From a virus: DNA of 27,090 bases. Below, piece by piece: positions 3,651 through 24,519 of this stretch. The stretch's first letter is position 1; every line of letters starts with the position of its first letter. The translations under genes and the position numbers were made by a program. The notes beneath the pieces are model-generated. The model worked only from the letters and a program-made list of their open reading frames with translations. It was not told where the DNA came from and made no database searches. The stretch covers positions 1 to 27,090 of IMG/VR virus record IMGVR_UViG_3300027797_000112, one strand, 5' to 3'.

Positions 3651-6600
3651 TGGCAGCCATTTCACAAAAGATTGGAAACCTAATTGGTGGTGTTTCACAA
3701 CAACCCGACACCAATAAATTTAATGGGCAATTACGCTCGTGTGATAATTTCTATCCAGACACTGCTCTTGGTCTTACCAAACGCCCTGGACTACGGGGAA
3801 TTAGTAAGCTAGCTAATGCTGTTGCTGATGGTACTTGGTTTCCGATCTTTCGTGATGACCAAGAGAAATATATCGTTCAGTTTAGTAAGGCAGGCGCTCT
3901 TAAGATTTGGAGTGCCAATAATGGTATTCAACAAACAGTGAATGCTGTTGCTGCTGAGTCTGTTACTTATGCTACTCATAAGTCAGCAGATGAACTACAA
4001 ACATTTCAAATCAACGATTTTATCTTTGTTTTAAATAGGACAAAGACGGTAGCAGCAGGAACAGCAGCCAGTGCGCCACAGGTTCCGTTTGCTTTTGTTA
4101 CTATTAATACAGTAGCTTATAGCTCTACTTATACAATCACACTTGACAACGCAACTAACTTTGCTTACACAACACCACACACAAGTGGATCAACACACCT
4201 AAACGTTAATGATGTTGTTGGTAATCTTGTTGCCTTAATTAACGCTAACGCAAATTATATTGCTGCTGCTATTGGTAATACAATTTTTGTAAGCCGAGCC
4301 AACAGTGGTAACTTTGCTATCTCGGCAGTTGGTGGTAATGCTGGTACATCCATCACAGCATTTAAGGGTTCTGTAACATCAGCAGCTCAATTACCTAAAT
4401 CATTTTTTAATGGGTATAAGATAAAGGTTGAAGGTACAACCGACTCTGGTGCTGATGATTACTGGGTAAAATTCGTTACCAGTGATAACACATCTGCTGG
4501 TGCTGGGTTTTGGGAAGAGACTATTGCCCCTGGTGTCATTCAGGATCTTGACGCCACCACGATGCCTCATGTCATTATCAGAGAGGCTAATGGCACCTTT
4601 ACTTATCGTCAACTTGACTTGGCATCAGCGACTGGATCAACTGGTCCATCCACTGTTGCTGGTATTGTCACCGCAGTTATCCTTAGTGGTGTAACAAGTG
4701 CTGGTCACGTTGTTGGGGAACAGTTTGCAGCAAGAGGTGGTACGGGTAATAACCTAAGACTTCAAGTTGATAGGGTTATTAATTCTGTAACTACCTTTAG
4801 TACGGCTGCTAATTCCAATACTTACATTTGGCAAGATCGTAAGCAAATTGGGTTTGAAATCACAACAATAAAATCGCAGATAAAAAGAAGTCCTGTATAT
4901 ACTTACACTTATTACTGGTACGTTAATGGGGCTAACATTGGCGTAACTGAAAACTCTACAAGCTTAACAATTGGTAATACGGTTTACTCACGAAACGGAG
5001 CCTTTACTAGTGTTAGCAATGAACTAAGAGCGGGCATTACTGGTACAACAACCATCAATGGTATCATTGCTGCTGTTAGTATTGTTCAAGCTGGTCAGGG
5101 GTATACCGCTACCAACCTTGTTCAAAATGATGCGGGTGATGCCTTTACAATTACAGCAGTCAATACTGCACCATTGGAAGGTGATGCAAGTCGTCTTAAC
5201 TTCTGGAAGTATCGGGAAATAGGTGATGCCACCACTAACCCAATGCCTTCGTTTGTTGGGTATCCGATTGATTTAATTTCCTTTTATAAGAACCGTATTG
5301 TTTTTGCTTCTAGGCAGAATGTCGTCTGCTCACAGGCAGGAGATTACTTTAACTTCTTTGCTAGTACTGTTATCACTCTTGTTGACAGTGATCCTATTGA
5401 TATTAGTGCTAGTACTCTTAAGCCGATTCGCCTAAAACACGCTATCTCTGCTCCACAGGGATTGCTGTTATTTGGTGATAATGCTCAGATGCTTCTATCA
5501 ACCACAACCGAAGCGTTCTCTCCAAAGACTGCTGAGATTAACCTACTCTCAACCCTCAGTCAAACTGATCGTATTGCTCCAGTTGATATTGGTAGTAGCT
5601 ATGTATTCGTAGAGGAAGGAGTTAAGGCTTCTTCTATTTATGAAATGGTTGTTACGGATATCAATACAAAGCCGCAATCAGCAGAACTAACACGACCACT
5701 ACCAACATATATTCCAGCTGCTATTGTTGATATGCAAGTATCGCAATCAGCGGGAACAATGGCAATACTAAGTAAGCAAGAAACCCGTAGCCTTTACCTT
5801 TATCGTTGGTTTAATTTAACAAACGATAATCGCATATCGGGGTGGTTCCGATGGATCATGCCTAGTGATGTGGAATTCTTTACGTTTGACCATGACATCC
5901 TATTTGTTGTTACCAAACACGGTAGTAACTATGTATTAAGTAGAGCCTCACTTCTTACGGATACTCCTGCTGAGTCATTGTTATTTGAAGGACAGTACCT
6001 TGATGTACGCCTGGATCTCTTTGATTACAATCCATTGTTTACATATGACTTGGCTACTGATGTAACCAGCATTTGTTTTAAGGATGGCTTTGAGGATCTC
6101 AATCTACAAGCAGTATTAGTTTATCTCAATGCTGATGTTGCTGGTTATTTTCAAGAACTTACCATTCAATATGATGCTGCTAAACCCGTTGGTCAACGGT
6201 ACTTTCTAACCCGAGAGGGAAATGAAACAGCAGCAGGAGGTCTATGTACGGTTGATCGTGCCGCAGCGTCCACCACAGCAACCATTACTACCCAGTTCCC
6301 ACATCGCTTAACTACGGGTAATACCATTACGGTATTGACTGGGGTAGTGGTTGGGGACTATGTTGTGACGGTTCTTACACCAACTACCTTCACCATAACA
6401 ACCGTAGCAACTACTGCTATTGTATTCCAGAAGTTTGTATTCTCTTGCGTTAATACTGCGTCTAAGTTTGCTCTTGGATATAAGTATGAAGCCAGTGCTC
6501 AACTACCGGCATTCTATGTTGTCAAGGATGAACGTGGTGGTAAGGATACCCTTAATGTTCCAAGGGTCAGTAGGATCAAAGTAAATAGCTATAACTCTGG

Positions 6601-15045: not shown

Positions 15046-15861
15046 ATGGCAATCACTAGCAACACATACACGGGGAATGGCACTAACAAGCTATTCTCTA
15101 TTACCTTCCCATATCTAGTTACGTCTGATATTGATGTATACCTTAACGGTGTTCTTCAGACGATTATAACTCAATACACCTTTGCCAACGCTACCACGGT
15201 TGAATTTGTCACCGCTCCATCAGTAGGGGCTGCGGTTCTTCTTGATCGTAGTACGGATGATCAAACCCTTCAGGCTACGTTTTTTCCAGGGTCATCCATC
15301 AAAGCTAATGATCTAAACTTTAACTTTGATCAGATCCTGTATTTATCACAGGAAACAGCTAACATTGCTCAAAATCAAAGCACGGCTGGTCTTCAAGCAC
15401 AGATTGATGCTGCTACTAATACTGCTAATAATGCAGCCACGTCCGCAGGTTCAGCCGCAAGTTCAGCCGCAACATCCGCGTCTATTGCCGCATCAGCCAT
15501 CAGCACCTCCCTTCAAAAGGCTGGTGATACCATTACGGGTAACATTGATAACAGTGCTACTGGGTACTTTGATCTTCCCGTAGGAACCACCGGACAACGC
15601 CCTGGAAGCCCCAACACGGGCATGGTACGGTTCAATGCGGACCTACTTGCCTATGAGGGGTATAACGGCACTGGATGGCTTCCTATCGGGGGTGGTGCAA
15701 AGGGTGGTGGTACGGATGATGTATTTTATGAAAATAGTCAAACCATTACTACCAACTACACCATTACTGCTGGTAAGAATGCTGTGACTGCTGGTCCAGT
15801 AACAATTAACAGTGGTGTGGCAGTGGTCATTCCTTCTGGTTCTGCTTGGAGCATTGTTTAA
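15046..15861 (+). CDS. Tail fibre protein with T7 gp17-type N-terminus
   Basis: A 271-residue fibre. Residues 1-115 match the T7 gp17 tail-attachment domain: YTGNGTNKLFSITFPYLVTSD, DVYLNGVLQ, LDRSTDDQTLQATFFPGSSI, IKANDLNFNFDQILYLSQET. Residues about 118-155 form an Ala/Ser/Thr coiled-coil-like shaft (TANNAATSAGSAASSAAT). A small domain follows (GTTGQRPGSPNTGMVRFN ... EGYNGTGWLPIGG, about 180-219). The last 50 residues (ENSQTITTNYTITAGKNA, ITINSG-like, IPSGSAWSIV) are a C-terminal module I associate with cyanophage and pelagiphage fibres. T7 gp17 is 553 residues, so this is a short fibre; further receptor-binding parts are probably supplied by the following genes. Start ATG 15046 preserves the conserved N-terminus. 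Confidence 0.9.
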   Translation: MAITSNTYTGNGTNKLFSITFPYLVTSDIDVYLNGVLQTIITQYTFANATTVEFVTAPSVGAAVLLDRSTDDQTLQATFFPGSSIKANDLNFNFDQILYLSQETANIAQNQSTAGLQAQIDAATNTANNAATSAGSAASSAATSASIAASAISTSLQKAGDTITGNIDNSATGYFDLPVGTTGQRPGSPNTGMVRFNADLLAYEGYNGTGWLPIGGGAKGGGTDDVFYENSQTITTNYTITAGKNAVTAGPVTINSGVAVVIPSGSAWSIV

Positions 15862-15863
15862 TT

Positions 15864-16334
15864 ATGCCTATTACTATTAACGGAGCCGGTTCCATAACCG
15901 GAATTAGTGCTGGTGGATTGCCAGATGCAAGTGTCATAACGGCTGACATTGCCGATGCCAACATCACAGCAGCCAAGCTCAGCGGCGCACAGACTGGCAC
16001 GGCCCCCATCTACGGGTGTCGGGCTTGGGTGAACTTTGACGGGACTGGAACTATTGGTACTAACCAGACAATTCGCGGAAGCGGCAACGTGTCCAGTGTC
16101 TACAAGAATGGCACTGGTGATTACACCGTGACCTTCACAACGGCAATGACGGATGGAAATTATGCAGTTAAAGGGTCATGTCAATTGAATAGTGTTGCGG
16201 CAAGCATGAACATTGATTTGTTTGGTTCAGGAACAATGGTTGCTGGATCATTTAGAGTAAGATGTTCTGGTGGAAATGCTGCTACAGATTTCATTGCTGA
16301 TAATCCTGTTGTTTGTCTTGCCGTATTTCGCTAA
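15864..16334 (+). CDS. Tail fibre or adhesin-like protein
   Basis: A 156-residue protein beginning MPITINGAGSITGISAGGLP. A short stalk-like segment (DASVITADIADANITAAKLSG, split as DASVITADIADAN and ITAAKLSG) is followed by a beta-rich domain with RAWVNFDGTGTI and NVSSVYKNGTGDYTVTFTTAM. The RAWVNFDGTG plus GDYTVTFT combination is a recurrent C-terminal receptor-binding or trimer-forming module of phage fibres. ATG 15864 is preferred to the in-frame TTG at 15846, which lies inside the preceding gene. It directly follows the gp17-like gene and probably forms a distal fibre part or an alternative adhesin. The binding partner cannot be read from the sequence. Confidence 0.72.
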   Translation: MPITINGAGSITGISAGGLPDASVITADIADANITAAKLSGAQTGTAPIYGCRAWVNFDGTGTIGTNQTIRGSGNVSSVYKNGTGDYTVTFTTAMTDGNYAVKGSCQLNSVAASMNIDLFGSGTMVAGSFRVRCSGGNAATDFIADNPVVCLAVFR

Positions 16335-16343
16335 CCCATCATC

Positions 16344-16919
16344 ATGACTTTACGACTTAATGGCTCGACCTCGGGCTACATTGAAATTGATGCTCCAGCA
16401 GTAAGCGATAACAGCACAATAGTGCTGCCAACGGGTGGAGGACCTTTGAGCAAGATGGTGCTGGAGACCGCCAAGGCATCCACCAGCGGCACCTCAGTGG
16501 ACTTCACGGGCATTCCGAGCTGGGTGAAGCGGGTTACGGTGATGTTTAACGGGGTAAGTCTTAGTGGATCTTCTGACATCTTGGTGCAGATTGGGTCCGG
16601 CTCCTTCACCAGTTCTGGCTATACCTCTAACGGTTTCACATACAACAGCACCAACGCGACAGGGGGTTCGTCATCCAACAGTGGATTTATGGTTGCCCTA
16701 GGTGCTGCTGCAAATGCTCTGCGGGGGACGATGTTTATCAACCTTCATTCCGGCAGTCTATGGGTTTCCACTCACAATGGTCTGGTAAGCACGGTCAACG
16801 TTGTTCAAGGTGCTGGAGACGTGTCGCTGTCAGGAGCCCTGGATAGAGTTCGCATCACCACCGTCAACGGCACCGACACCTTTGACGCGGGGTCGATCAA
16901 CATCCTGTACGAGGGCTGA
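16344..16919 (+). CDS. Fibre-type beta-rich protein
   Basis: A 191-residue protein. The N-terminus (MTLRLNGSTSGYIEIDAPAV, then NSTIVLPTGGG) is the short attachment-type segment found on many phage adhesins. The rest is Ser/Gly/Thr-rich and beta-strand-like (WVKRVTVMFNGVSLSGSSDI, VSLSGALDRVRITTVNG, GSINILYEG), typical of a carbohydrate-binding jelly roll. There are no catalytic signatures. It lies ten bases after the preceding fibre gene and three before the next. It is probably one of several swappable receptor-binding subunits. Confidence 0.65.
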   Translation: MTLRLNGSTSGYIEIDAPAVSDNSTIVLPTGGGPLSKMVLETAKASTSGTSVDFTGIPSWVKRVTVMFNGVSLSGSSDILVQIGSGSFTSSGYTSNGFTYNSTNATGGSSSNSGFMVALGAAANALRGTMFINLHSGSLWVSTHNGLVSTVNVVQGAGDVSLSGALDRVRITTVNGTDTFDAGSINILYEG

Positions 16920-16921
16920 TC

Positions 16922-17659
16922 ATGAGCACACTTAACGTAGCATCAATCAACAGCGGCCCTATCGGCGGATTCCGCAACGCTGTAATCAACGGCAACCCTA
17001 CAATCAACCAACGTGGTTATGTTTCTGGTACTGCAACCAGTGGGGCCAACCAATACACGCTGGATCGCTGGCGGGTTGTCACGTCTGGTCAATCAATTAC
17101 TTGGGCCGATTCCGCCAACGTTCGTACTGTCACCGCTCCAGCTGGTGGTGTTGAACAAGTAGTCGAAGGTATCAATTTAGGAACGGGAACTTATACCTTA
17201 AGCTGGACTGGTACTGCTACAGCAACGGTAGGCGGTACTGCTATTGCTAATGGAACCACTGTGTCGCTAACAGGTGGTGTGGATACAACTGTGCGCTTTA
17301 TTAATGGCACATTCTCTTTAGCTCAACTTGAGCCTGGCACTAGGGCCACACCATTTGAGCGGCGGCCGATTGGGACTGAGCTGGCGCTGTGTCAGAGATA
17401 CCATCAGATCATTCAGTCTCTACGACTTTCAGGCTACCAAATAGCCGGCAATGAAATCTCAGCCCCAGTTGGATATATGACAACCATGAGAGCCGTTCCG
17501 ACAGCAGTGGTAAGCAGTTTTTCCTTAAACAATGTGGCAACTGCGACAGTTTTCGCAATCAATATGACTACGAGCGGCGGAGCTATCGGAATAGTTGCTG
17601 GAGGAACTGGTATCTTAAGTGCAGTTGACGGAACATTTACCCTATCCGCCGAGCTGTAA
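16922..17659 (+). CDS. Fibre or carbohydrate-binding-type protein
   Basis: A 245-residue protein with an N-terminus typical of phage fibre C-terminal modules: GGFRNAVINGNPTINQRGYV, then YTLDRWRVVTSGQSITW (residues about 15-63). A beta-sandwich-like region (TGTYTLSWTGTATATVGGTA) leads into LAQLEPGTRATPFERRPIGTELALCQRYHQII (about 132-164). This tail-end motif occurs in many phage proteins that bind surface glycans. It starts at ATG 16922, preceded by GAGGG, one of the few plausible Shine-Dalgarno sites in this block. Its position within the fibre cluster supports a role in host recognition. Confidence 0.72.
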   Translation: MSTLNVASINSGPIGGFRNAVINGNPTINQRGYVSGTATSGANQYTLDRWRVVTSGQSITWADSANVRTVTAPAGGVEQVVEGINLGTGTYTLSWTGTATATVGGTAIANGTTVSLTGGVDTTVRFINGTFSLAQLEPGTRATPFERRPIGTELALCQRYHQIIQSLRLSGYQIAGNEISAPVGYMTTMRAVPTAVVSSFSLNNVATATVFAINMTTSGGAIGIVAGGTGILSAVDGTFTLSAEL

Positions 17660-19626: not shown

Positions 19627-19791
19627 ATGATTTATCCTCCTGATGGAGTTGAGGTATTAGTTACCACTGATGGCAATGAACAGATTTTTGCTATTTGGAA
19701 TGGTAGCTACTGGGAAGTTGGGGTCGAAAATGATCCACTTCAGGCCCCATTAAACAAAACAGTGGTTGAGTGGCAATGGAGGACTGAGTAA
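19627..19791 (+). CDS. 54-residue protein with a strong ribosome binding site
   Basis: ATG 19627 is preceded by GGAGGGGG, the clearest Shine-Dalgarno in the window, and the frame runs to TAA 19789-19791. The TAA overlaps the ATG of the next gene by one base. The product (IYPPDGVEVLVTTDG, FAIWNGSYWEVG, VVEWQWRTE) is a small beta-hairpin-rich, acidic, Trp-rich polypeptide. It resembles the small sandwich domains that phages attach to fibres. Function is unknown. The one-base overlap with the 661-residue repeat protein suggests coupled translation and perhaps a chaperone or cap role. Confidence 0.65.
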   Translation: MIYPPDGVEVLVTTDGNEQIFAIWNGSYWEVGVENDPLQAPLNKTVVEWQWRTE

Positions 19792-21776
19792 TGGCCCCAA
19801 TATTTCAGGCAGAAACTGGGCAGCAAAGCACTTCTGGTAGTAGTGTTACCCTTTCGTGGCCTACTCACCTTACCAATGACATTGGTTTAATTGTCACTGA
19901 GATAGCTGGTAACAGTGCCACCCTAACTCCTCCTGCTGGGTGGACTGCCATTCCAGGTACGCCTGTTTCGGATACTGCTGGCCTCGCGAGCGGCTCCCAG
20001 CTTCATGTTTGGTGGAAGCGGGCAGCATCCGCATCCGAAGCGTCTGTGGTCACTGGATCCACAACTGACCACCTTGTTGCCCGCCTTTTTACGTTTCGAG
20101 GATGCGTTACTACTGGTAACCCTTACAACGTAACGACAACAGGAGCCAAGACCACCAGTAGTCCTACAGCAACGGTTCCAGCCCTTGTTACTACTGTCGA
20201 TGACACGCTCATTACAATGGTGGTGGGGCGTCCAAACGACAGCGGCTTTACGATCCACTTTGGTGTTCCTGTTAATGCAAACCTTACGGGACTAGGTGAG
20301 GCGGGAGAAGGTGGGACAACACTGGGTAACGGGGGTGGTTTTGTTGTCAGCTATGGCGAAAAAGCTACCGCCGGTAATACCGGAACTAGTACCCTAACCA
20401 AAATTACCAGCACGACCGATACTTACGTCGTATTGGCCCTTATTCCGGACCCTTCACTAAAAATACTTAATTGTAGCAGAGGTCTGTTTACTGGGACTCA
20501 GCCTAACGTTCTTCTGCAAACGTCCAGAACGATTGACGGAACTACCCAAACCTACTCAGTTGTTGGAAATAGTCTTGATCTTTCTACGTCTGGTTCCTCG
20601 CCTGTTTCCCTTGACATTAGTACTGGGGCGTTTACCCTTGCGGGGACAACTGCTGGGTTACTGTTCAATAGAAATTTAATTCAACAACTCGGTACATTTT
20701 CGGTTGTTGGGAATAACGTAAATCTTTCTAAGTCTGTTTCCCTTGATGTCAATGTAGGAACGTTTACCTACAATGGAACCACAACGGGACTGCTGTTTAA
20801 TCGAAACTTAATTCAACAACTCGGTACATTTTCGGCTGTTGGACACAACTTACTGCTTCAAAAAACAGCTAGATTAGACATTACAACAGGCTCTTATGCT
20901 GTTAATGGGTTTAATGCAGCTTTAACAAAGCAGTTTTGTATTGATGGAATTACTAGTTCGTATTCCTTTGTTGGTAATTCCGCTCTCCTTCAACGGGCAG
21001 CACGAATAAACGCCACAAGCCAAACGTATAACCTTGTTGGAACCGCAACGGGACTTCTCCAAAATAGACAACTTGTTTCCCAAACAGGAACGTTTTCTAT
21101 TGCTGGTGTTCAGATTGAATTAATCTATACACCAACAGGAGCCACCTTTACCTTAGATAATCAAACAGGAACCTTTGCGGTTACTGGTATCCTTGCAAAT
21201 CTTAACAAGCAATCTATACTAAGCACTCAAATAGGCTCTTACGCTAGTGCGGGCAATACGCTTGGATTTATTCGAGCACTGGCAATACAAAGCATTGTTG
21301 GTACGTTTTCGATTGCTGGAATTTCTGTTGGTATTAATAAACAAATTACACTAAATCTACAGATAGGGACGTACACACTATCCGGCAATACGCTTGGATT
21401 CATTCAAGCACTAGCCCTCCATAGTGTTCTTGGGTCATTTTCTGTGTCCGGTAAGGATGCAGTATTCTCACTTACGAAACCCTTTAGCCTTACAACTGGC
21501 ACCTATACAGTTAGTGGCAATACTGTAGGGGTCAATAGGTTCTATCAACTTAATAATCAACCCGGCAATTACTTTGTTGTTGGGTCAGACTTGGATTACT
21601 TTAGTAGTAGAAATCTGGTTACATTACCACTAGCTATTGTCACTGATTTCCGATCAGTTGGTAACTTCTTCTGGTATCAAACCACACAAACAATCCAACC
21701 CGTCAAGTATAAAATTACCAAGCGTAATGAGTTTATATTGGGACGGCAAACACACATGGGTCGTAGAGGCATATGA
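19791..21776 (+). CDS. Large repeat protein of the virion or fibre type
   Basis: A 661-residue protein. Residues about 1-225 form an Ser/Thr/Gly-rich jelly-roll-like domain (VTLSWPTHLTNDIGLIVTE, PPAGWTAIPG, LHVWWKRAAS, ARLFTFRGC), common in phage surface proteins. Residues 253-613 are sixteen tandem repeats of 22 residues with the pattern GTFSVxGNxxxLxxxxxLxxxx; repeat 1 has 26 residues and repeat 9 has 27. Regular beta-strand spacing suggests a solenoid or a long stack. The last 48 residues are basic (VKYKITKRNEF, ILGRQTHMGRRG). There is no signal peptide or catalytic motif. It starts at TAATG overlap with the 54-residue gene and ends in an ATGA overlap with the small terminase. It is probably a fibre, tail spike or capsid appendage. 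Confidence 0.75.
   Translation: MAPIFQAETGQQSTSGSSVTLSWPTHLTNDIGLIVTEIAGNSATLTPPAGWTAIPGTPVSDTAGLASGSQLHVWWKRAASASEASVVTGSTTDHLVARLFTFRGCVTTGNPYNVTTTGAKTTSSPTATVPALVTTVDDTLITMVVGRPNDSGFTIHFGVPVNANLTGLGEAGEGGTTLGNGGGFVVSYGEKATAGNTGTSTLTKITSTTDTYVVLALIPDPSLKILNCSRGLFTGTQPNVLLQTSRTIDGTTQTYSVVGNSLDLSTSGSSPVSLDISTGAFTLAGTTAGLLFNRNLIQQLGTFSVVGNNVNLSKSVSLDVNVGTFTYNGTTTGLLFNRNLIQQLGTFSAVGHNLLLQKTARLDITTGSYAVNGFNAALTKQFCIDGITSSYSFVGNSALLQRAARINATSQTYNLVGTATGLLQNRQLVSQTGTFSIAGVQIELIYTPTGATFTLDNQTGTFAVTGILANLNKQSILSTQIGSYASAGNTLGFIRALAIQSIVGTFSIAGISVGINKQITLNLQIGTYTLSGNTLGFIQALALHSVLGSFSVSGKDAVFSLTKPFSLTTGTYTVSGNTVGVNRFYQLNNQPGNYFVVGSDLDYFSSRNLVTLPLAIVTDFRSVGNFFWYQTTQTIQPVKYKITKRNEFILGRQTHMGRRGI
20547..21629 (+). 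repeat. Sixteen 22-residue coding repeats (66-bp unit)
   Basis: The encoded repeats begin at residues GTF/GTY/GSY/GSF and carry a Gly at position 7. DNA similarity is highest between units two apart. A 28-bp stretch is identical at 20676-20703 and 20808-20835, 132 bases apart. GGCAATACGCTTGGATT occurs at 21252 and again at 21384, also 132 bases apart. This implies a 44-residue double unit that has been duplicated more than once. Confidence 0.85.
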
Positions 21777-22003
21777 CACAACGAGCTAACGAGCAAGATT
21801 TTAACGAGCTTCACGGCCTCGTTACTAATGAACTGATCATGCGTATTAAATCAGGCACAGCCACCACACAAGATCTAAAAGCTGCTGCTGATTGGCTTGG
21901 TAAGAATAATATTACGGGTGTTCCCGTGATGGGGTCGCCTTTGGCATCACTGTTTAGTAGTCTTGAATTGGAGCTGGAGGATGTCGAACGGGCCATTAGA
22001 TGA
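21773..22003 (+). CDS. Small terminase subunit, T7 gp18-like (probable)
   Basis: A 76-residue helical protein (T7 gp18 has 89). The segment ELHGLVTNELIMRIKSGTATTQDLKAAADWLGKNNI, read as LVTNELIMRIKSG, ATTQDLKAAADWL and GKNNITGVPV, is the pattern I know from small terminase subunits of T7-like environmental phages: a helix, a short Gly-containing turn, then LxxAxxWLxxN. It ends LELELEDVERAIR. Small terminases bind phage DNA and regulate the large subunit. ATG 21773 overlaps the previous TGA (ATGA). Its order after the fibre genes and before an 18.5-position membrane protein agrees with T7. The large subunit is unusually far downstream, at 25734. Confidence 0.72.
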   Translation: MTQRANEQDFNELHGLVTNELIMRIKSGTATTQDLKAAADWLGKNNITGVPVMGSPLASLFSSLELELEDVERAIR

Positions 22004-22971: not shown

Positions 22972-23523
22972 ATGTCTACAACTTCTGATGCCGTTACTTA
23001 CGGCGGCCTTTCTAATGCTCCTGGTAAGCGTGACGAGGATCAACAAACCAATAAAGCAAAGTCTACCGCCTTCCGTACTGACGCAGTTACCACCACGACT
23101 ACGATTGCTGCCTCTTATGGTGCTGCTACTACGGCTGTCGCTGCTAGTGCCACTGTAGATGCTGCTGAAACCGCAATTCGTGCGGTACGTTCTGCTCGTG
23201 TTAAGCCCACCAACGCAACTACCGGGCTGCCTTCTGCTAAGGCTACCGGCACCGTTCGCCGTGCTGAAACTGGCGCTATTGCTACCTTCGGCACCCGTGT
23301 TAACGGTTCTGGTTATACCTCTGCTACCTACACCAACGTTGCTCTGAGCGGTGGTTCTGGTTATGGCGCTACTGCCAACATCACTGTGACTGCTGGTGCC
23401 GTGACGGCTGCCACTCTGAACCGTCCTGGTCAGTGGTATCTCGTTGGTGACGTTCTGTCCTGTCAACTGATCGGCGCTGGCACCTTGTTTGCTCTGCCTG
23501 TTGCTACCATTACCCAAGGTTGA
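22972..23523 (+). CDS. Virion-type protein with GSGY-rich C-terminal module
   Basis: A 183-residue protein. The N-terminal half is Thr/Ala-rich (TTTTTIAASYGAATTAVAAS, about residues 40-60). The C-terminal half carries GSGYTSATYTNVALSGGSGYG and ITVTAGAVTAATL, with WYLVGDVLS. This GSGYxxGTYxNVxLxGGSG ... ITVxxGxVTxxxL ... YxVGDxLS pattern is a beta module repeated in many cyanophage tail and virion proteins. Codon choice is visibly richer in C/G-ending codons, like the capsid gene, suggesting high expression. A reverse-strand ORF of similar length lies opposite and is treated as a shadow. Role: probable abundant structural protein, not otherwise assignable. Confidence 0.68.
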   Translation: MSTTSDAVTYGGLSNAPGKRDEDQQTNKAKSTAFRTDAVTTTTTIAASYGAATTAVAASATVDAAETAIRAVRSARVKPTNATTGLPSAKATGTVRRAETGAIATFGTRVNGSGYTSATYTNVALSGGSGYGATANITVTAGAVTAATLNRPGQWYLVGDVLSCQLIGAGTLFALPVATITQG

Positions 23524-23529
23524 TTGATC

Positions 23530-24519
23530 ATGGCTCCTAAGAAACCCGTAAAGCCTACTAAGCTACAACAAAAGGCTGATCAAAAAAACAAAGTGCTGAC
23601 TGGCCCTAAGGGGTCTAAGCCACAATCCACAACGACCAATCGTGTGCGTACCCAAGGCGGCACGACCATGAGCAAGCCAGCCCCTAGTGCTGGTCGTCGT
23701 ATTAACCCTAAGGCAGCTAAGCCTAAACCCACTGCTGCTAAGCCCGCTGCTAAGCCGACACGTCCTTCTATTGGTAATGTTCGTGGGCCAGCAAGGTCAG
23801 CACGGCCAACTGCTGCTAAGCCCTCTACCCCTAGTGGGGGTGGTAGGAACCTCTTTGGGGGTGCTGGCAATAAGCCAGCTGCTATCACAAAAGCTGATAG
23901 TCAAAAGGCTCCAAAGCCTGCCTTTAGAACTAGCCGTGCTCCTTTTAGTTCGACAGGTACGCCTACTCGTGCCTCCCTTGGTAACGTAAAGCCAGGCCCA
24001 GCTGCTGCCGCAGCTCCTCGGCAACAAGCACAAGCACAAGGACAGGCAAACGTCAGGGCTGCGCAACTACGGCGACAACAATTGATGGCGGCTAACCAAC
24101 GAAGAGCTGTAGCCAAAGGTGGAACCGGTGCTGCAATAGTAGGAGCCCTCCTAAATGCACCAGAGGAATTGAAAAAACTTCAAGCCCTTCTTAGAAATCC
24201 CAAGGGGGCTCTTAGTCGTGCAAGTTCTGATATTTTGTCAGGTAAGGCTTACGACCCGCAAACAGTTCCAAAAGCATCTAAGCCCGCTACCCCTAAGCCA
24301 GCCACTCCAAAGGGTCCCACAGCGGCTCAACGTAAGGACTTTGCTGCCCAAGAAACGAAGGCCCGTCAATCCCTAACTGCTCGCAAGAAAGCAGCGGGTT
24401 CAGACCAAGCTACCCCTAACACCGCAGCCTCCTTTGATGATGCGTTCAAGGATGCTCGTCGGGCTAAGGTTAAAGCCTTCACCTGGCGTGGGAAGAAGTA
24501 CACCACTGAGATGAAATAG
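23530..24519 (+). CDS. Lys/Ala/Pro-rich histone H1-like basic protein
   Basis: A 329-residue, mostly disordered protein (ATG 23530; an upstream TTG at 23524 is less likely). The first 90 residues are made of Lys-Pro-Thr-Ala repeats (PKPTAAKPAAKPTRP) that read like linker-histone tails. Further basic and Gln/Ala-rich segments follow (RQQAQAQGQANVRAAQLRRQ). A short helix GAAIVGALLNAPEELKKLQALLRN lies near residues 195-220. The end is KAFTWRGKKYTTEM, a tail motif that recurs in environmental phage proteins. No globular fold is evident. It lies among other basic proteins before the large terminase. A role in compacting or neutralising DNA, or as a capsid internal protein, is inference from composition. 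Confidence 0.65.
   Translation: MAPKKPVKPTKLQQKADQKNKVLTGPKGSKPQSTTTNRVRTQGGTTMSKPAPSAGRRINPKAAKPKPTAAKPAAKPTRPSIGNVRGPARSARPTAAKPSTPSGGGRNLFGGAGNKPAAITKADSQKAPKPAFRTSRAPFSSTGTPTRASLGNVKPGPAAAAAPRQQAQAQGQANVRAAQLRRQQLMAANQRRAVAKGGTGAAIVGALLNAPEELKKLQALLRNPKGALSRASSDILSGKAYDPQTVPKASKPATPKPATPKGPTAAQRKDFAAQETKARQSLTARKKAAGSDQATPNTAASFDDAFKDARRAKVKAFTWRGKKYTTEMK

Follow-up and report, generated by a model that had tools for sequence, protein, structure and literature searches.

The nearest described systems with which the repeat protein reported here can be compared are the T7 gp17-type tail fibre (PF03906) and the Syn5 proteins gp53 and gp54. The likeness to the former lies in a neighbouring position within a T7-like module and in a presumed adhesin role; however, the PF03906 anchor is absent from the repeat protein and present in a separate ORF (15046-15861), and the end that is conserved in the repeat protein is the C-terminus, not the N-terminus. 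The Syn5 proteins are structural proteins of a related phage, and their large genes lie close to those of the terminase. The repeat itself has counterparts of the same unit length and consensus that are encoded by uncultured Caudoviricetes, both in IMG/VR and in the Manatee Spring podovirus (UOF81327.1), with a tblastn E-value of 3e-11 between the Manatee Spring phages and our protein. These counterparts belong to other phages and differ in N-terminal domains, C-termini and unit numbers, and the array described here is more degenerate than other arrays of the family and has a 44-residue super-period. Two BFVD entries, A0A6J7WAX7 and A0A6J5NQD7, resemble the protein by predicted structure. The Cthe_2159-type carbohydrate-binding protein (PF14262) was matched weakly by some family members and not at all by the protein studied here. 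A literature search, conducted largely outside subscription journals, returned no paper on the 22-residue repeat.

Genome context and probable host

The stretch analysed, hereafter the window, is the whole IMG/VR virus record IMGVR_UViG_3300027797_000112 (27,090 bases). Annotation with PHROG and Pfam gave a gene order that begins with the portal C-terminus, scaffold, capsid, tail tubes and internal virion proteins, continues with a T7-type tail-fibre N-domain (PF03906), further tail-fibre pieces, a C39-peptidase endolysin and two small proteins, and ends with the repeat gene, TerS, HNH, an endonuclease VII-like gene and TerL. Judged from its sequence, this is a T7-like, cyanophage-like structural module. 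The nearest isolates by capsid and terminase are T7-like phages of Synechococcus and Prochlorococcus (major capsid protein 69% to S-CBP2, TerL 61% to S-CBP42), and on this similarity the host is probably cyanobacterial. No such repeat protein was found among the annotated genes of the equivalent region in Syn5, S-CBP2 and S-SRP01; since these related cultured cyanopodoviruses lack it at this site, the gene is accessory. No promoter or terminator above chance was detected around it.

Other features of the module were recorded in passing. The tail-fibre region (15046-17659, +) is divided among a series of four ORFs, some of which overlap; the T7 tail-fibre N-domain lies in the first, and the third occurs twice (4495-5121 and 5289-5744) in L003, one of the relatives treated below. 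ORFs of 183 and 331 aa lie at 22972-24519 (+), the position equivalent to Syn5 gp53/gp54, and the 331-aa gene has mostly no match in L003 and in a further relative, L002. An RlpA-like DPBB gene (1478-1774, +) separates the scaffold and capsid genes, and a 'rare lipoprotein A' gene lies at a similar position in cyanophage DSL-LC07.

Table 1. Features of the repeat gene and its downstream neighbour (window coordinates)
Feature	Position	Strand	Remarks
Repeat protein gene	19791..21776	+	661 aa, stop included; gene order conserved in relatives
N-terminal domain, residues 1-230	19791..20480	+	~72% identity in L003; unrelated/diverged domains in L004, L006
Degenerate extra unit GLFTGTQPNVLLQTSRTIDGTT	20481..20546	+	canonical unit in L003/L005
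Sixteen tandem units	20547..21629	+	two units of 26-27 aa; array recognised by HMM from other phages
Copy 1, VSLDxxxGxFTxxGTTxGLLFNRNLIQQL stretch	20592..20690	+	L004/L006-like
132-bp double unit missing in L002	20661..20792	+	exact placement depends on alignment
Copy 2, VSLDxxxGxFTxxGTTxGLLFNRNLIQQL stretch	20724..20822	+	L003/L007-like
Ninth unit, 27 residues, with longer hairpin-like insert YTPTGATF	21087..21167	+	comparable long units across family
Conserved C-terminal 48 residues and stop, putative virion anchor	21630..21776	+	75-100% identity in relatives
Terminase small subunit (PHROG 891)	21773..22003	+	start overlaps repeat-gene stop; overlap retained in relatives

The repeat array

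The ORF of the 661-aa protein is intact in the window (G000). The sixteen 22-residue tandem units described in the initial annotation are present, with the correction that a degenerate unit precedes them; because L003 has a canonical unit where GLFTGTQPNVLLQTSRTIDGTT stands, seventeen is the better count. Fourteen of the sixteen units are 22 aa long, and the first and ninth are about five residues longer (26-27 aa); the unit consensus is G-[SAT]-[FY]-x-[LVI]-x-G-x-x-[AV]-x-L-x5-L-x4. BLOSUM-based autocorrelation of residues 229-600 peaked at lag 44 (1.12), followed by 22 (0.52), then 88 and 66, with a maximum of -0.10 across all lags in 500 shuffles. The 22-residue period is far above chance, and by autocorrelation the array has the dominant 22-residue spacing.

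At the DNA level, identity was highest at lag 132 (0.436), as had been claimed. The two identities quoted in support, 28 bp at 20676/20808 and GGCAATACGCTTGGATT at 21252 and 21384, proved exact, and the gene contains no longer exact repeat; after codon shuffling the longest exact repeat averaged 10.7 bp, with a maximum of 14. The 44-residue double unit stood for the window array, where it is the top lag, but did not extend to the family: in 71 wider-family arrays, the comparison of even with odd lags gave no general 44-residue super-period (Wilcoxon p = 0.45), and a family-wide 44-residue structural pair was looked for and not found, even lags being ahead in 33 of the 71 only.

A wider family of 22-residue repeats

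The repeat had not been recognised as a named family, and profile searches bore this out: neither Pfam nor NCBIfam gave a match over the repeats, and no PHROG model was confident (best E 0.007). We defined family members by tandem units with G1, F/Y3, an aliphatic residue at 5, G7, A/V10, L/F12 and an aliphatic residue at 18, and the window protein conforms to the G-x-[FY]-x-[LVI]-x-G, 22-residue definition. An HMM from which the close relatives of the window had been excluded recognised most of its units, with a best single-unit E of ~1e-5.

A DNA pattern of three units at 66-nt spacing matched at least 120 IMG/VR stretches, and 110 of 118 new loci had an ORF with at least four units by HMM, a model built from units of many of the same loci, which confirms extra units without independence. 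Further HMM-validated loci came from a reversed pattern (39 of 55) and from a 23-residue spacing pattern (5 of 17), to a total of more than 150 on phage contigs. The reversed pattern was discarded as a negative control, since its 39 loci hold real members and it is no gauge of scan background. Spacing was 22 residues in 727 of 869 family intervals (17-34 aa), at loci preselected for three units at 22; the largest arrays have ~54 units. Unit lengths of 20, 24 and 26 were commoner than 21, 23 and 25, and by eye the length variation falls between unit positions 12 and 18. In bacterial and archaeal genomes 27 of 80 loci were validated; these are plausibly prophages. Arrays of 12 and 8 units (L276 and L265) occur on contigs named Synechococcaceae cyanobacterium and Methanothrix, respectively.

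Laminin_G_3 lectin-like domains were found in 10 of 95 family ORFs. Flanking genes with a nameable product belong mostly to the structural and packaging classes, each PHROG being matched at no more than 3 of 107. Several candidate relationships were dismissed: Lipocalin_4, YscD, ComJ and other Pfam matches of members, mostly with no stretch passing alone, were put down to composition; the Lap adhesin match (6xi3, E 5e-6) stems from GSYSLTG, a short motif that recurs within longer domains, and was not read as homology; and weak matches to NCBIfam YabP and to a PHROG 'flavodoxin' were set aside. A close search of IMG/VR with the Manatee Spring protein as query found nothing. The repeat family is uncatalogued, and what is new is the repeat itself together with its natural unit-number variants; the protein is otherwise ordinary in kind, a variant of a familiar phage protein.

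Close relatives and exchange of N-terminal domains

Close relatives of the repeat protein were found on seven IMG/VR contigs, of which L001 is identical throughout. The repeat pattern also brought up L086, which is more distantly related but has the same TerS neighbour. The overlap between repeat gene and TerS is kept in all close relatives. In L003, L004 and L006, the relatives with upstream sequence, the endolysin and the same two small proteins precede the repeat gene and the gene order of the window is kept; in the others it is kept from the repeat gene onward. The conserved C-terminal 48 residues were found only in this group.

The opposite end is exchanged, with at least three different N-terminal domains among the relatives. 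That of L003 is window-like; the domain of L004 is unrelated and matches CBM_4_9 weakly (E 1e-4, below the cut-off), and the N-terminus of L006 resembles the minor tail proteins of PHROG 13352 (E 2e-25). No named family is a good match to the N-terminal domain of the window protein. A 54-residue ORF (19628-19791, +) shares a TAATG overlap with the beginning of the repeat gene and is conserved in L003; L004 and L006 have fewer than 20 bases between the genes and lack this ORF. To judge by this distribution, it seems to travel with the window/L003-type N-terminus, and the two may be exchanged together.

Change of unit number by probable recombination

Unit counts, taken from translations, were 17 in the window, 15 in L002, 13 in L003 and L005, 16 in L004, 12 in L006 and at least 13 in L007, so that the repeat number ranges from 12 to 17 between relatives. 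L002 and the window differ in the repeat gene at 24 of 1292 aligned bases (98% DNA identity), and L002 lacks exactly 132 bp, or two units. The L002 junction is chimeric, its upstream side corresponding to copy 1 of the window and its downstream side to copy 2 (Table 1), which, with the 132-bp loss, supports the proposal that array length changes by whole units through recombination between repeats. After the ninth unit, the stretch between fixed landmarks holds three units in the window, four in L004 and a single one in L003, L006 and L007, and single-unit steps therefore also occur. From the 24 differences, pN/pS is 0.82, too few to claim selection.

The view that pairs were recently duplicated had to be abandoned, as the two copies have their closest matches in different relatives and the two best-matching units are only 71% identical overall. 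Over the 66 nt that precede the motif common to both, copy 1 and copy 2 of the window share 59% identity, whereas identity to L004/L006 is 74-77% for copy 1 and identity to L003/L007 is 82-85% for copy 2. Fisher tests on the 66 sites gave p = 0.002 (copy 2 versus L007) and 0.04 (copy 1 versus L004), values that are indicative only, as sites and comparisons were picked after looking. Such a pattern would arise either from units of two lineages joined by recombination or from an old duplication lost differentially.

Predicted fold

AlphaFold2, given seven units with 63 register-aligned segments, predicted a regular all-beta structure at modest confidence (mean pLDDT 67.7, pTM 0.60); a model of the full protein with seven relatives (pLDDT 44) was discarded. 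In the PDB, Foldseek gave no significant match (all at E 0.1 or worse, TM-score ~0.41 at best), and the weak matches were mostly to beta-helix proteins (tapirin, pectate lyase, ice-binding). Predicted phage-protein models in BFVD matched with probability 1.00, TM 0.76-0.81 and E 0.007-0.014, a match between predicted structures. The initial suggestion of a regular, fibre-like repeat protein is supported.

Two arrangements of the shaft compete, with stacked hairpins as a further candidate. A beta-solenoid was the initial suggestion; in single-chain form, with one rung per 22 residues, a length that suits such a rung, it is compatible with an adhesin, and we consider it a little short of an even chance: strands fall at identical places in every unit of the seven-unit model, and both the beta-helix proteins among the weak PDB matches and the weak matches of some family members to beta-helix Pfam models such as Cthe_2159 point the same way, but those PDB matches are poor, and the changes of length at one site of the unit, with 20, 24 and 26 favoured, would also fit the tip of an antiparallel hairpin. 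The other arrangement, an intertwined homotrimeric shaft of strand, Gly turn, strand and variable loop like the triple beta-spiral of the adenovirus fibre, seems rather unlikely. Phage fibres are usually trimers, and the unit pattern (hydrophobic-x-hydrophobic-x-Gly-x-x-hydrophobic-x-hydrophobic plus a length-variable loop) resembles the motif by analogy; nevertheless, Pfam and PDB gave no sequence match to fibre shafts, and the monomer model is regular without partners.

Role of the protein

We interpret the protein as an adhesin or fibre attached to the virion of a T7-like phage, probably one of cyanobacteria, with a swappable head, a recombinable shaft and a C-terminal anchor (probability roughly 0.6); its presence in the virion, binding, orientation and exact fold are what we infer. 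The N-terminal domain would bind a target on or near the host, the shaft of 22-residue all-beta repeats would keep this head away from the particle, and the conserved ~48 C-terminal residues would dock the protein to the virion, although their conservation could also reflect a role in assembly or processing. As the units share DNA in register, unequal recombination would add or remove whole units without breaking the frame, and could join units of different lineages, so that the length and sequence of the shaft may vary while the reading frame stays intact. The lectin-like Laminin_G_3 fusions in the family suit an adhesin.

By analogy with Syn5, the protein might instead be a capsid decoration or horn component, since the structural proteins gp53, gp54 and gp58 of that phage are encoded near the terminase genes, and gp53 and gp54 are horn components. 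We regard this as improbable: the Syn5 genes follow TerS and HNH, with gp53/gp54 between HNH and TerL, whereas the window repeat gene precedes TerS, and the gp53/gp54-equivalent positions (22972-24519) are occupied by other window genes. The adjacency of lysis genes could suggest a secreted or cell-associated product acting outside the virion, for example in a matrix or in superinfection exclusion, but inspection of the repeat ORF by eye showed no evident signal peptide, structural genes are among the neighbours of the family and the lectin-like fusions suit adhesins; we consider such a product very improbable.

Beyond the adhesin interpretation of this one protein, we offer as a speculation, tentative at best, that the repeat unit represents a structural shaft module not described before, with no counterpart of its fold in the PDB, common to many kinds of phage and serving as a length-adjustable spacer. 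If so, phages would retune reach and target together by exchanging heads and by recombining repeats, across lineages as well. The repeat is common to many unrelated phages and absent from Pfam, NCBIfam and PHROGs, which would allow joint annotation of 'hypothetical' phage proteins, many of which could become candidate shaft proteins, and the effect of shaft length on adsorption becomes testable with naturally occurring pairs like the window and L002, whose arrays differ by a whole number of units.
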